A stretch of DNA of 20,371 nt from a virus, in the IMG/VR virus record IMGVR_UViG_3300020196_000307, positions 1-20,371 of that record, one strand, 5' to 3'. This document shows positions 7,683 to 17,305 of this stretch, in pieces. Position numbers and translations under genes: made by a program. Every line of letters begins with the position of its first letter. Within the stretch, counting starts at the first letter, position 1. Below the pieces are notes generated by a model. The model made no database searches. It saw only the letters and a program-made list of their open reading frames with translations, and was not told the DNA's origin.

Positions 7683-8185
7683 GTAACCCTCACTGCGTCC
7701 AGCATGTCTACGGTGATTTTACGTGTTGGCACTTGGGCGTTCAACTGGTTGATGCCGGGATTTACGATCCAGGTGACTGCGATTTCTGTGATAGTAGCTT
7801 CCATGATGCTGCCTATATACCGACTAACTAGAAAAGCACTGGAAGCATCGAACTGATCTTGGCCGCCGTTTTGGAGATACAGGGAGGCGATTACAAGGTT
7901 GTCGGAGGCAAGAGCTGTTTCTGTAATATCGACGATCGAGGCCAAGGCCGCAATATCGACAGTCAAATCATTCAAGGAGTCGGCGCCGCACGAACCAAAG
8001 CCGCTCGGATTAAAGGCAAGATAGCTGTACGGATTGGCGATGTCTGGATCGATGCTTAATGTCTGAGCAACCTGGTAAAAATTTTGCCACTGCGCCGTAG
8101 GTATCCGTAAACCCGACACTGGATCGGTAATAGTATCTCTATCTTGGTAATACTCCAAGAAACACATGACGTCATAGCTGTCCAT
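7679..8185 (-). CDS. distal tail protein-like, unknown
   Basis: 168 aa starting MDSYDVMCFLEYYQDRDTIT. The mixed sequence includes a central helical stretch (LNDLTVDIAALASIVDITET) and a beta-rich C-terminus (TITEIAVTWIVNPGINQLNA, then VPTRKITVDMLDAVRVT). In siphoviruses the gene just after the tape measure commonly encodes a distal tail protein or minor tail protein, and this one has suitable size, but I do not recognise a family signature. Its ATG shares a base with the tape measure stop (TAATG), and its own stop overlaps the next start (ATGA). Confident as a gene; function assigned only by position. Confidence 0.6.
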   Translation of the reverse strand: MDSYDVMCFLEYYQDRDTITDPVSGLRIPTAQWQNFYQVAQTLSIDPDIANPYSYLAFNPSGFGSCGADSLNDLTVDIAALASIVDITETALASDNLVIASLYLQNGGQDQFDASSAFLVSRYIGSIMEATITEIAVTWIVNPGINQLNAQVPTRKITVDMLDAVRVT

Positions 8186-10977
8186 TAGCGGATCCCCACG
8201 CTGCTGCGAATACTTGCATCTCTGCTGACTAGGCGCAGGGTCTGTTCGATGCCCGCTTGAACAGCACGGCGCATATCCTGGGTTGTAACGTAGTTGGTGC
8301 CGTTCATTTGAGTGACGGGACCTGTCTGGATATTAACTGTAGGCATTGCTCCAATAGAAGAGCTTTCGGTGGTAGCTGATGGAATAGCCGCAGAACCTCT
8401 GGCACCCATCATGTAGTTCATGGCGAAACTAGCCGCTTTAGATTCTGGAATTACATATTCACCTTGCCCTGCTTCGGCGATCAGTGCAAAAGTCGGACTA
8501 TTAACAAAACCACCTGCTGCCATGCGAGGAACGGAAAATGACTGACTGGCAGCGCTATATGTACGTCCCAGTTGTAAAGTTTGGCCTAAACCTTGGCCTA
8601 GTGCACCCGCATTGCCGCTGCCCATTGCTGCTTGAGTCTGGCGTGCATTAATGGCTGCCAGTTCCATATTGCGGGCAAAACCAGCGGCTTCAATTTTTTG
8701 TCTGTAGGTGGCGTCGGCAATTTGAGTTTGGATAGTTGCATTACGCACGGCATAATCGAAAGTCTGTTTTGTTAATTGCAGGGCATCGTACTGAGCATCA
8801 ACAGCATTGATATAATCTTGATTAAGTGTTCCTCGGGCTTTAGCTTCAAGCATCACTGCTTGGGCATTTTTGAACAAAATCTCTTGCTTGCGAATATCAA
8901 TAGTAAGAAGTTGTAAATTAGCTTGGATTTGAGTATATGTAGATGCTTGCTCAAGTTTTGCGTTAGATACCGCAATCTGGTACCTGATGTGATTAATCTC
9001 TCTTAGACGCTGGAAGATTGCCTCTTGTTGAGCAAAATTGGTTGTTTGCTCTAATGCTTTATCCAGTAGCTGGACTTCCATGTCCAGTCGCTGTGAGTAG
9101 AGATCGTTGAGGGATTTCTGTAACGTAAACTGCGACTGTGCCAGGGTTTCTTGCCCTCGGATTGCGCCAGCTCGAAGGTCGAGTGCGCGGGTAGCGCGCT
9201 CTCCGGCGGCTTTTATGTCTTTCTCAAAAAGTGCCAGTGCTTCTTTGTTGGCTTGTACTTTTAGGTCTAGTTTTTTGTTTTCTAGGGCAGTGATTTCGTT
9301 TTTGAGTTTGCCCATTTCTTCAGCGGATACAATCCCTTTTGCTACACCACCTGCCGCTTCGATATCTTTTACATTTTTGATAGCTACTGCTAGTTTTTCG
9401 TTTGTTGCTAGATATTCGTTTTGGATTTCAATAGAACGGACATTATCTTGCAGAATTTCTCCGTTGAGAACTTTTACTGCTAGACCTTTTTCTAGTTGAA
9501 GCTTAAAATTCTCTGCGTAGATATCACGCAAAGCGCGGCCGGCTTCTAGTTGAAGCTTTAGATCGTCTACGCTAAGCGGTACATTCTTTTTAGGTACAAA
9601 TTTTTCGTATTTGTCGAGCAAGTCCTTTAATTCTTTGTTTTTTTGCGCAGTAGATTTACCCCCAAAACCAGGAGAAAGTAATTGGCTAAGTAGCAATTTA
9701 TCGTATTCATTTTGAAATTTTTTACGAGCTTCGGGCGGCAGTGTTTTTAGCGTTACTGCTGCTTGTTGATTTAAATTTCCCTGTTCTAATAGCTCATTTA
9801 GTTTATCTATAAATGCTTGTAATGGTCCTGCTAAAAATACTTGAAAACGTATATTTAATTCTGCCATACTTCTGCTAAATTTATCGCTAGTTTCTCTTAA
9901 TTGCTGTAAACTGTTGCCGCCAAAACGTCTGTTAAAATCTTCATAAATAACAGCATTAGCTTTTACAATTTCACCGTTTTTAATTAGAGTCTCGACGTAA
10001 CGTTCTTGGGCTTTAGACGAAAGCAAACTTTTTTCTTTAATTTGATCGAAACTAGATACTGGAGATTCAAGTGTTTTTGCTAAATCGACAGCGGCTTGTC
10101 CGAAGTCTTGAATAATTCGACCTAGGGCTGAGCCGAGAATCTGGCCGCCAAACCCTGTACCAACAAACGAACCGAGCACACCGCCTGCTACTTCGCCGAA
10201 ACCTCCCCCAAACAGCAATGGAAAACCGGCACCTAGCATAAGGTTTTCGACCATCTTTGAACCTGCTCCTGCGCCTGCTGTTACGCCACCTGCTTTTTTA
10301 GCCACGGGAGATTTTGCGGGACCTTGCATAGGTCCGCGACCTTCTGCTAAGTTCATACGTTGCTGAACACGAGACATAGCAATATCTAGATCTCGAAATT
10401 CGTTGCTAGTGACGTCGACTAAAACACGCAAATCGTTTAATTCGGCTTGATACGCATTTAAAGCTGCAATACTATTTGGGATTGCGGCTTCTTGATCCAA
10501 AAGTTCTTTTACTAATGTTCCGCCGCCGATTGTTTTTCCTTTTGCACCACCAAAAGATAGTTCTTCGGATAAAGTGGCTAGTCGGCTACGTCCTAAGGAA
10601 TTAGCTGCGACAGCGGCCTGCTGGGCTGCAACTGTAAACTCACGAAACTGATTACTGGCAATATCACTGTTATCCGCTATCCGTTTAAATGTTGTGGAGA
10701 GTGCTGTTGTGTTTGCAATAGTTCTACTAGCTGTAGTACCAAATGCCTCAATCGCACGCTCGCTGTTAATGAAACTATTTTTTAGCCCGTTGAGTTCTTT
10801 AGCGGCTTTACCGAAACGATCCGCTAGTTCGCCGCGTCCTGCAACTTTAGAAAGATTGATCGGACGGGTATTGATGTCTTTGACCAGACGTTCCAGTTCT
10901 TGGACGCGGTTAAGAACCCCGTCCACCATTCCGGTGCCAGTTACACGTACGTTAATAGAGGCGTCGTAACTGGCCAC
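8185..10977 (-). CDS. tail tape measure protein
   Basis: 930 aa, the longest gene of the window, which is typical for the protein that sets tail length. Residues 1-215 and 300-790 are largely alpha-helical and coiled-coil-like (for example LRVLVDVTSNEFRDLDIAMS and KELLDQEAAIPNSIAALNAY). A glycine-rich hydrophobic segment at about 242-290 (LMLGAGFPLLFGGGFGEVAG) is the membrane-active region usual in this family. Residues 819-858 (AAGGFVNSPTFALIAEAGQG, then EYVIPESK) match a motif found near the C-terminus of many tape measures. The start codon is GTG with GAGGT 10 nt upstream. At about 0.15 nm per residue the tail would be about 140 nm; that figure is inference. The coding sequence is AT-richer than the head genes. 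Confidence 0.92.
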   Translation of the reverse strand: MASYDASINVRVTGTGMVDGVLNRVQELERLVKDINTRPINLSKVAGRGELADRFGKAAKELNGLKNSFINSERAIEAFGTTASRTIANTTALSTTFKRIADNSDIASNQFREFTVAAQQAAVAANSLGRSRLATLSEELSFGGAKGKTIGGGTLVKELLDQEAAIPNSIAALNAYQAELNDLRVLVDVTSNEFRDLDIAMSRVQQRMNLAEGRGPMQGPAKSPVAKKAGGVTAGAGAGSKMVENLMLGAGFPLLFGGGFGEVAGGVLGSFVGTGFGGQILGSALGRIIQDFGQAAVDLAKTLESPVSSFDQIKEKSLLSSKAQERYVETLIKNGEIVKANAVIYEDFNRRFGGNSLQQLRETSDKFSRSMAELNIRFQVFLAGPLQAFIDKLNELLEQGNLNQQAAVTLKTLPPEARKKFQNEYDKLLLSQLLSPGFGGKSTAQKNKELKDLLDKYEKFVPKKNVPLSVDDLKLQLEAGRALRDIYAENFKLQLEKGLAVKVLNGEILQDNVRSIEIQNEYLATNEKLAVAIKNVKDIEAAGGVAKGIVSAEEMGKLKNEITALENKKLDLKVQANKEALALFEKDIKAAGERATRALDLRAGAIRGQETLAQSQFTLQKSLNDLYSQRLDMEVQLLDKALEQTTNFAQQEAIFQRLREINHIRYQIAVSNAKLEQASTYTQIQANLQLLTIDIRKQEILFKNAQAVMLEAKARGTLNQDYINAVDAQYDALQLTKQTFDYAVRNATIQTQIADATYRQKIEAAGFARNMELAAINARQTQAAMGSGNAGALGQGLGQTLQLGRTYSAASQSFSVPRMAAGGFVNSPTFALIAEAGQGEYVIPESKAASFAMNYMMGARGSAAIPSATTESSSIGAMPTVNIQTGPVTQMNGTNYVTTQDMRRAVQAGIEQTLRLVSRDASIRSSVGIR

Positions 10978-11014: not shown

Positions 11015-11035
11015 GCCGCCGGGGTTAACGGCGGC
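11015..11035 (-). promoter_or_regulatory. GC hairpin between tail chaperone T and tape measure
   Basis: GCCGCC at 11015-11020 pairs with GGCGGC at 11030-11035 around a 9-nt loop. Read on the minus strand it overlaps the end and stop codon of the T frame (11025-11027) and is followed by TTTCGATTT, a weak U-rich tract. It could act as a weak terminator or attenuator before the tape measure gene, or as an mRNA stabiliser. The broken T tract makes strong termination unlikely. Confidence 0.4.
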
Positions 11036-11559
11036 GTTTGGCGGCTTCGATGGCCTTGCGCTCCTGTTCGGCGCGGATGTTGTAAAAAGCGTTCCAGGCG
11101 AGGACTTCGGTGGCGGTCATTCGGGTGCGAAGCTCGGTCAAGGTGATGCCGAGTTCGTTGGCCACGTGGAACTGGAGCAGGAGGAACTTGTCCTTCTCCA
11201 GTTCGGCCTCAAGGGCTTTTGGTGTCCAATTCCTCCGAGTCGTCGGTCAGGACTGCCAGCATCAAGGTTTGAAGGTCCTTGTCCTTGACTTCGTTCTTGA
11301 GGACATCGATCTCGCCGGGCTTGAACAGTTTCTGGCCAGACTCGTCGCAGGCTTTGCTGATTAGCAGCTGGAGCGCGAAGGCAGTGGCGTCCTCGGATTT
11401 GGCCTGTTTTTGAGCGCGTTCGCGCTCGGCCATGGTCAAAGGTGTGACCCACATTTCAAAAGTGCTGCCGTCGGATAGTTCGACTTCTTTCTTGGTGGGC
11501 TCCAGGTTCGCGGCCTTGCGGAGGCGATCCAGGGCTGATACGGGGGTGGGGCCGGGCAT
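11025..11559 (-). CDS. tail assembly chaperone G-T fusion (+1 programmed frameshift)
   Basis: Joining the 116-aa frame (11559 down to its AAA codon at 11220-11218) to the +1 frame starting GCC at 11216 gives a 177-aa protein: 114 residues of G followed by 63 of T. The T part reads ALEAELEKDKFLLLQFHVAN, then ELGITLTELRTRMTATEVLA and WNAFYNIRAEQERKAIEAAK, ending at TAA 11025-11027. This is a coherent helical sequence with the 'L..E...M...E...W.AF' pattern of gpT-like tail chaperones. The T frame is closed upstream by TGA at 11247-11249 and has no start codon before the junction, so it can only be expressed by frameshifting between 11249 and 11209. As in lambda gpG/gpGT, a minor fused form is expected to coat the tape measure before tube assembly. 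Confidence 0.82.
11209..11559 (-). CDS. tail assembly chaperone G-like
   Basis: 116 aa, MPGPTPVSALDRLRKAANLE at the start. The fold is mixed with EVELSDGSTFEMWVTPLTMA (about 25-44), then helices rich in Lys/Glu (ERERAQKQAKSEDATAFALQ; GEIDVLKNEVKDKDLQTLML) and an acidic end DDSEELDTKSP. Position directly before the tape measure, size, and a second overlapping frame behind it identify it as the unshifted product of the G/GT chaperone system. It acts transiently during tail assembly and is not expected in the virion. No good Shine-Dalgarno precedes the ATG. A strong terminator lies between it and the major tail protein gene, so it is probably made in much smaller amounts than the tube protein. 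Confidence 0.8.
   Translation of the reverse strand: MPGPTPVSALDRLRKAANLEPTKKEVELSDGSTFEMWVTPLTMAERERAQKQAKSEDATAFALQLLISKACDESGQKLFKPGEIDVLKNEVKDKDLQTLMLAVLTDDSEELDTKSP
11217..11220 (-). other. probable +1 frameshift slip site (AAAA)
   Basis: The minus strand reads GAC ACC AAA AGC CCT TGA in the G frame. A Lys tRNA on AAA (11220-11218) can move one base forward and still pair perfectly with AAA (11219-11217), after which GCC, the first T codon, is read. Of the codons in the permitted window (11249-11209) this is the only one with perfect re-pairing after a +1 shift. A -2 shift gives the same frame but would re-pair poorly. Confidence 0.6.
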
Positions 11560-11650: not shown

Positions 11651-12421
11651 TCAGGCGCTCTTGCTGAGGTCGAAGGTAGGGGCGCTGCTGGGGCGGAAGT
11701 TGATGGCAACGCTTTGGCCGTCGTCGGGGTTTACAGTGAGGCTGGCCGAAGTCAGGATCACGGGAACGGTGATGGAACGGCTGAGGGAGTCGCTGACGGT
11801 GCCGCCGCTGATGATGCGATCGATGTAGAGCTTCATCATGGCACCAGCTTGGGTGCGTTGGATGACGTCCTCGACCATGCGGCTGGCCAGGGTGGTGTCG
11901 TCGTCGGTGGTGTAGATCGTGGCCGAACCAGTGCCGTCGGCGTAACCAGTGATGTAGGCCCGGAAGGGGGCGTACTGGGTCACGTCTTGGCCGATGGTGG
12001 TGACGTCGATTTCCGAGCGGGTGATCTCGAAGCTCCACTCGCGGACGGAGCCGATCACAGCCGGAGCTGAATACTCAACCTGGAAGGCATTAGGGGTGAC
12101 TGCCGTGCCATCGTCGGTGATGTCGACAGCAGCACCGCCGGTGGTGGCGGACACTTCGAGGATGCCCGTCGAAGCGGCATAACCGATCACGTAGTAGGTC
12201 GTACCAGCAGTCAAGCCGGCGGGTAGGGTGCCCGTGCCGGAGGCGCCGGTGTTGACATTCACCACGCTGAACTTGACGGGATCGCCGACTTTGAAGTTCA
12301 GATAGGTGGCTACGGTGATTTCGTCGTCGGCAGCGTCGACGGCAGTTTCGCCGAAGGTTGCCTTGGTGGCGGCAGGTGAGTAATACAGGGCGCCGGAGGT
12401 GCCCGAAAGGACGGTGGCCAT
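11651..12421 (-). CDS. major tail (tube) protein
   Basis: 256 aa. The N-terminus MATVLSGTSGALYYSPAATK and the C-terminal part (AVIGSVREWSFEITRSEIDV, then VEDVIQRTQAGAMMKLYIDR and a DDGQSVAINFRPSS ending) have the look of siphovirus tube proteins. Residues about 27-113 look like an inserted domain: DEITVATYLNFKVGDPVKFS, then LPAGLTAGTTYYVIGYAAST, then LEVSATTGGAAVDITDDGTA. That 'GL.AGT.YYVI' domain recurs in many phage structural proteins and would project from the tube surface. The gene has its own candidate promoter, a 76-nt leader region and a strong terminator behind it, as expected for a protein needed in hundreds of copies. An AGGT lies 7 nt before the ATG. Confidence 0.85.
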   Translation of the reverse strand: MATVLSGTSGALYYSPAATKATFGETAVDAADDEITVATYLNFKVGDPVKFSVVNVNTGASGTGTLPAGLTAGTTYYVIGYAASTGILEVSATTGGAAVDITDDGTAVTPNAFQVEYSAPAVIGSVREWSFEITRSEIDVTTIGQDVTQYAPFRAYITGYADGTGSATIYTTDDDTTLASRMVEDVIQRTQAGAMMKLYIDRIISGGTVSDSLSRSITVPVILTSASLTVNPDDGQSVAINFRPSSAPTFDLSKSA

Positions 12422-16551: not shown

Positions 16552-16582
16552 GTTCTATTCTAGAACATAAGAAGATGTTCTA
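16552..16582 (-). repeat. triple inverted element GTTCTA / TAGAAC / GTTCTA
   Basis: On the plus strand GTTCTA (16552-16557), TAGAAC (16561-16566) and GTTCTA (16577-16582) alternate in orientation. TAGAACAT (16561-16568) pairs perfectly over 8 bp with ATGTTCTA (16575-16582) around AAGAAG. It pairs alternatively over 6 bp with the first element around TTC. The stop codon of the collagen-like gene (16580-16582) lies in the stem. No T run follows on the minus strand. Likely an mRNA structure or operator-like site, not a classical terminator. Confidence 0.55.
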
Positions 16583-17305
16583 AAACGTGCCATCGTCGAT
16601 GGCGTATGTGGCCGATACGTAGAAGTCGGTGGCCAACGAAACAACGCCATCAGAAACGGTTATGCCGGTACCTGCAGTGACGGTAGCGTTGGAACCAGCG
16701 GGACCCTGCGGTCCGGTGGGGCCGGTTAAACCTGTAAGACCTTGAGGGCCGGTTTCGCCTTGTGGGCCTTGGGATCCGGTGGGGCCGGCAGGACCTGTTT
16801 CGCCTTGCGGACCTTGCGGGCCAGTAAGACCGATGAGACCTTGTTCGCCTTGGGGACCAGCAGGACCGGCGGGCCCCGTGGCTCCAGTAGGGCCGGTCGG
16901 ACCAGGGTCGCCTTGGGGGCCGGCAGGGCCGATGGGGCCGGTGTCTCCTGCTGGGCCGGTTGCACCAGTGGGGCCGGTGGCCCCGGTGGGACCTTGGGGG
17001 CCGGGATTGCCTTTGTCGCCTTTGACCGGAGGAGCTTGGTTGCCGCTAATGGTCAGTTGGGTGGTGCGGATACGGCCGTCGGTATCTCGCGTGCCAAGGG
17101 CTACGGGTTCGGTAGGCCACGCGGTGCCGGACTTGGGGCCATAAAGCTGCTTGGTGCGACGGTCGATGTACCAGTCGCCGGGGTTGCCGAGGTCGCTCGG
17201 GGGACCGTCGCCAGATAGCAACGTGGTTAGGTTTTTTAGTTTTTTACTGAGTTTGACGAGTGCGGTGACTTGGGCCAGCGTCAGGTAGTCCTGTTGGGTG
17301 GCCAT
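16580..17305 (-). CDS. collagen-like structural protein in the head module
   Basis: 241 aa. The N-terminal 35 residues are helical ([20 protein letters not shown]). Then follows [20 protein letters not shown] (about 39-58), a motif often placed before phage and bacterial collagen-like stretches. Residues 96-203 are 36 uninterrupted G-X-Y triplets, many GPT, GAT, GPQ and GPA. A short beta-rich C-terminus ends [10 protein letters not shown]. Collagen-like stretches form triple helices, so a trimeric fibrous rod about 30 nm long is expected (inference). Most phage collagen-like genes are among the tail fibres; this one lies between portal and scaffold, so a head or collar fibre is the likely role. 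Translation is probably coupled to the portal gene, whose stop is 4 nt upstream. Confidence 0.82.
16697..17020 (-). repeat. G-X-Y coding repeat of the collagen-like gene
   Basis: A 9-nt periodic array encodes 36 consecutive Gly-X-Y triplets (residues 96-203). Related units such as GGX-CCX-ACX recur with varied third bases, so the repeat is old at DNA level, yet it could still expand or contract by slippage. Confidence 0.85.

Follow-up and report, generated by a model that had tools for sequence, protein, structure and literature searches.

The tail gene region of this virus raises the question of how ribosomes might reach T, an open frame behind the gene G that has no start codon of its own. 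By the window we mean the whole stretch of DNA analysed, 20,371 nucleotides of the IMG/VR virus record IMGVR_UViG_3300020196_000307 (positions 1 to 20,371). The features of the window and of three related loci discussed below are collected in Table 1.

Table 1. Coordinates of the features discussed; positions without a prefix refer to the window
Feature	Position	Strand	Basis or remark
Tape measure protein	8185..10977	-	PHROG 167, 1e-5
T, 63 codons and TAA, readable only through a +1 shift	11025..11216	-	no start codon in the open frame
Stable RNA hairpin, 8 nt past the slip site, candidate stimulator	11160..11208	-	predicted fold
TGA, stop codon of G, two codons past the slip codon and outside the slip step	11209..11211	-	variable distance in relatives
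G, tail assembly chaperone, 116 aa, zero-frame product	11209..11559	-	PHROG 344, 1.4e-7
AGC, zero-frame A-site codon during slippage	11215..11217	-	AGC 173, AGT 8, AGG 2 of 183 +1 junctions
AAAA slip site: zero-frame AAA 11220-11218, re-paired AAA 11219-11217	11217..11220	-	conserved in +1 relatives
GGAGG, Shine-Dalgarno-like, 11 nt 5' of the slip codon, candidate stimulator	11232..11236	-	sequence read
Probable major tail protein	11651..12421	-	position only
Antisense HNH endonuclease ORF between T and tape measure gene	L139:2025-2621	-	
Antisense HNH endonuclease ORF between T and tape measure gene	L158:1477-2106	-	
Antisense HNH endonuclease ORF between T and tape measure gene	L090:1118-1705	-	

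Identity of G and T

G is a tail assembly chaperone, as indicated by its match to PHROG 344, its predicted HK97-like fold and its place in the gene order, which runs from the probable major tail protein through G and T to the tape measure protein. The PHROG profile search also matched it to PHROG 20784, and the HK97 tail assembly chaperone 2ob9 was the top PDB match (E 2.9e-4, probability 1.0) for an AlphaFold model of G folded alone, built from 55 relatives and with a pLDDT of 72. The match of G to Pfam Phage_TAC_13 stays below the cut-off of that family, and a search of the PDB with the G profile, by sequence, gave no match. A mixed alignment of G and T was dropped for folding, as the T rows fitted the fusion poorly. 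The product of the probable major tail protein gene matched no family in Pfam or PHROG; the annotated major tail protein of S-2L occupies the equivalent position, and a tape measure protein is annotated at the equivalent place in both KBS-S-2A and S-2L. The closest named phage is the cyanophage KBS-S-2A, with 63% identity in G, and the relatives suggest that the virus probably infects aquatic cyanobacteria. Elsewhere in the window, a protein with Gly-X-Y collagen-like repeats is encoded at 16580-17305 (minus strand), between the portal and scaffold-region genes.

The T frame stays open between 11246 and the TAA at 11027-11025, is closed upstream by the TGA at 11249-11247 and has no ATG, GTG or TTG near its beginning, which confirms the coordinates given in the first-pass annotation. 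It lies at +1 relative to G, its 63 codons being counted from the GCC at 11216. T matches PHROG 337 and PHROG 14766, both of them tail proteins, and has homologues in the T part of related phages; a profile detected this homology in 374 loci, and no relatives were found in the genome contigs collection. The alignment with PHROG 14766 spans the whole G-T fusion and that with PHROG 25875 (tail assembly chaperone) crosses the junction weakly, as would be expected if G and T formed one polypeptide. Thus, the earlier proposal of a G/T chaperone pair, made from the letters alone, is now backed by PHROG matches, by the HK97-like predicted fold of G and by homology of T in relatives. The T of KBS-S-2A (NC_020854.1:34102-34304), an intact -1 frame behind A_AAA_AAC, is itself unannotated, and at least some relatives are therefore annotated without their T half.

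The junction in relatives

In the window, the zero frame at the junction reads GAC ACC AAA (11220-11218) AGC (11217-11215) CCT (11214-11212) TGA (11211-11209), and reading AAAA as a single lysine step yields a fusion of 177 aa with the junction DTK-ALEAELEK. Since AAA_A is not rare in frame (the main genes of the window, some 5,400 codons in all, contain it about 36 times), one sequence alone supports such a slip site only weakly. In scans of IMG/VR and the phage records, 377 sequences proved to carry a homologue of G, with 282 distinct junctions; T occupies the +1 frame in 183 of these and the -1 frame in 99, a ratio that is not a population estimate, as the sample was collected by similarity to G and covers lineages unevenly.

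All 183 junctions of the +1 class carry, within the permitted interval, a zero-frame AAA followed by AG (third bases are given in Table 1). The codon 5' of this AAA is specific to the lineage, being ACC in the group to which the window belongs and ATG, TTG, TTA or CTG elsewhere. In 143 of the 183, a +1-frame stop directly abuts the AAA on its 5' side (aTGA AAA, tTAA AAA), which places the slip on AAA or later. The first T codon in the window's group always encodes alanine (GCN) and varies synonymously in its third base, indicating that the T frame is already read there and that the slip occurs at or before GCN. Together, these two limits enclose the shift at AAA_A. The slip lysine is encoded by AAA in 58 of 58 cluster representatives, with 54% AAA among the other G lysines of the +1 representatives (nominal P of about 5e-16, the representatives not being fully independent). 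When the slip codon was left open in scans of the whole collection, GACACC-NNN-AGCNCTTGAGG returned AAA in 45/45 chaperone junctions and in 0/13 matches elsewhere, and GCTAAAGCCGANTTN-NNN-AGC returned AAA in 77/77 chaperone junctions. Judged from these comparisons, the conservation of the slip site across the +1 relatives is far beyond chance and shows that the site is under selection. The first-pass annotation had placed the shift at AAA-to-AAA re-pairing on A-AAA and had pointed to related phages as the place to look for conservation of the AAAA; the tetranucleotide is indeed kept in all 183 relatives of the +1 class, although AAA_AGY describes the signal better than AAAA alone. A separate observation concerns the TTA/TTG-type junctions (L298-L377): GAGGCTAAAGCC, located 18 to 7 nt 5' of the slip AAA, is identical in 65/65 distinct sequences, codons outside it varying synonymously, and it is a possible upstream element.

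Among the 99 relatives with T at -1, a classical -1 slippery heptamer was found in 87. The other twelve comprise eleven loci with C_CCC_AAG (L162, L164, L166, L167, L168, L172, L173, L175, L189, L191 and L218), at which full re-pairing is possible only for the P-site proline tRNA, and one, MED4-117, with A_AAG. The presence of T behind -1 heptamers in these sister phages indicates that a shift into T is conserved regardless of its direction. The window has no X_XXY_YYZ heptamer leading to a second frame at -1, T being at +1 there. When the predicted +1 and -1 fusions are aligned, they are gapless at the junction (D-T-K-A-L, D-M-K-A-L, D-P-K-x-L), which favours a shift of +1 over one of -2, as the latter adds a residue. 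The forward direction proposed earlier therefore stands, with T at +1 in 183 distinct relatives. It had also been held that relatives which lack the AAAA and yet keep G and T intact would speak against the shift; such relatives do exist, but their T lies at -1, mostly behind a known heptamer, and they reinforce the +1 conclusion instead of weakening it.

Proposed slippage at AAA_AGC and other routes into T

On the basis of these sequence comparisons, it is very likely that G and T constitute a chaperone pair of the lambda gpG/gpGT type in a cyanosiphovirus-like phage, and that T is reached by a +1 slip at AAA_AGC. As in lambda, two overlapping frames lie between the major tail protein (assigned by position here) and the tape measure protein; the first encodes the chaperone, and the second has no start codon and would be entered by frameshifting. 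Most ribosomes would end at TGA 11211-11209 and release G. In a minority, while tRNA-Lys occupies AAA in the P site and the A site presents AGC, a forward slip of one base would allow the lysine tRNA to re-pair perfectly on the overlapping AAA, GCC would enter the A site, alanine would be accepted, and reading would continue through T to give the 177-aa fusion. Both ribosomal slippage as the event and AGC as the slow step are what we infer from the junctions. By analogy with lambda, G would coat the tape measure protein and the T part would recruit the major tail protein, a presumed role in tail assembly.

Several other routes into T have to be weighed. A -2 shift, as in Mu, lands in the same frame as +1 and would leave one extra residue at the junction (DTKKALEAE). 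The 11-nt spacing of GGAGG in the window resembles that of backward shifts, an SD-like spacing of this length being of the kind known from them. However, the two bases 5' of AAA differ by lineage (TG, CC, TA, AC), so that re-pairing two bases back is not available, and fusions built with +1 already align without a gap to those of the -1 class; we regard the -2 route as highly improbable. Slightly less credible is that T is translated independently, beginning at an internal or unusual start and coupled to the end of translation of G. Overlapping frames such as these are a common setting for translational coupling, but no start codon is present near the beginning of T, and this route would leave unexplained why AAA_AGY is conserved, why T switches to -1 behind heptamers and why the fusions are gapless.

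A prfB-like +1 shift at the stop, on CCT_TGA, would be suggested by the window itself, in which CCT is the last sense codon before a UGA that can be slow. Near relatives have GCT, ACT or ATT as the codon before the stop, the distance from the slip AAA to the stop ranges from 2 to 9 codons across the family, and an SD-like element at the 3-nt spacing of prfB is absent, which makes this route still harder to accept than an independent start. The least probable of all is that the frame break stems from an error in sequencing or from slippage on the run of A's during transcription. Errors can disrupt frames in metagenomic contigs, but the +1 arrangement recurs in 183 distinct sequences, and four A's are much shorter than the runs usually required for polymerase slippage, for which more than 7 has been cited (PMC3711429).

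Slippage at AAA_AGC, the preferred reading, could be assisted by elements on either side of the site. In the window, the region of the hairpin is predicted to form an 87-nt fold of -35.1 kcal/mol (z -4.0); RNAalifold found no consensus structure in 38 junctions of the window's group, and Rfam gave no match. Compared with shuffled sequences, downstream segments were more stable in the -1 group (mean z -3.0), in the ACC-like +1 group (-2.2) and in the ATG +1 group (-1.6), and not more stable in the TTA/TTG groups. GGAGG is missing from some +1 relatives, e.g. L017-L020, and neither it nor the hairpin, the two candidates checked, proved to be a stimulator common to all +1 lineages. Avoidance of AAA_AGC was not seen in other or neighbouring genes, so that the hexamer alone probably shifts weakly, or needs context; weak shifting would suit a fusion required in small amounts. 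The codon usage of the window genes (GCC 44 and AGC 26 per 1000 codons) indicates that AGC is not rare, and the junction agrees with the 'four' forward motif of PRFect, applied by hand, in having AAAA in frame and GCC commoner than AGC.

Possible exchange of frameshift direction

The first-pass annotation had called a +1 shift in a tail chaperone uncommon, which holds, but such shifts are already known. The use of -1, -2 and +1 for the chaperone gene pair in different tailed phages has been described (PMC5009743), +1 at TTT_CGC has been proposed for HF1-like haloviruses (PMC7230728), and PRFect used 350 forward cases from SEA-PHAGES genomes, with no general forward motif identified (PMC10885494). 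The HF1-like haloviruses, HSTV-2 and the forward actinophage cases likewise shift +1 into a chaperone extension (PMC7230728, PMC5009743, PMC10885494), but with another proposed slip codon and in other hosts, and no account of an AAA_AGY signal was found in these papers. Lambda shifts -1 at G_GGA_AAG, unlike the +1 at AAA_AGC proposed here. The cyanophages KBS-S-2A, S-H1 and S-2L possess homologous G and T in the equivalent place and, in contrast to the window, shift -1 (A_AAA_AAC; C_CCA_AAG in S-2L). RF2 (prfB) and yeast Ty3 share with the slip proposed for the window a one-base forward event in the P site, preceding an A-site codon that is slow, and in Ty3 an AGY serine codon likewise occupies the A site. 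What sets the window apart is the perfect AAA-to-AAA re-pairing, an A site with no stop codon, an AGC that is not rare and the absence of an SD at the prfB spacing.

The bacterial +1 frameshift motif is poorly defined in general, and here one is fixed across 183 distinct sequences. On the sequence evidence, the new parts are the conserved, stop-independent AAA_AGY signal and the switching of direction, the +1 chaperone shift itself being known. The literature searched, which mostly lay outside subscription journals, contained no description of the conserved AAA_AGY signal or of an exchange of direction among near relatives, and searches for an AAA_AGC-type motif in cyanophages gave nothing direct. 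We lean, though only somewhat, towards the view that AAA_AGY represents a distinct stop-independent bacterial +1 signal in a large group of aquatic phages, with a direction exchangeable through a cassette of slip site and T, sometimes accompanied by an HNH endonuclease, so that near-identical G occurs with +1 or with -1.

The direction appears to travel mostly with T. It would have to change 4 times on the T tree and 9 times on the G tree, these trees resting on few columns (65 and 103) and containing many unresolved forks. Where two loci share at least 85% identity in G, the median identity of their T was 80-99% within a class and about 51% (maximum 63%) between classes. L139 (+1) and L140 (-1) share 95.5% DNA identity until L139:1827, a point 15 nt 5' of the slip codon, and full identity resumes over 43 nt at L139:2694-2736, where the older T has its 3' end. 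The stretch enclosed by these matching flanks contains, in L139, the +1 slip site, a T of its own and an antisense ORF with a match to HNH endonucleases in PHROG (8e-61). The same pattern was seen for L158 and L200, with 100 identical nt past the break. In both L139 and L158, the slip site, T and HNH ORF look like the product of a cassette exchange that replaced a -1 version, with the endonuclease possibly helping the exchange, although the cassette boundaries may instead reflect assembly chimerism. A related HNH ORF also follows T in the -1 locus L090.

These patterns suggest that a phage may change its frameshift mechanism, with tail assembly kept, by a joint swap of slip site and T, and the +1 group with its -1 sister phages constitutes a natural experiment on what sets frameshift direction. 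Phages of the KBS type (-1) and of the ATG type (+1) resemble each other to about the same degree in G (75%) and in T (80%), which would fit a switch in place, through a two-base change in length.
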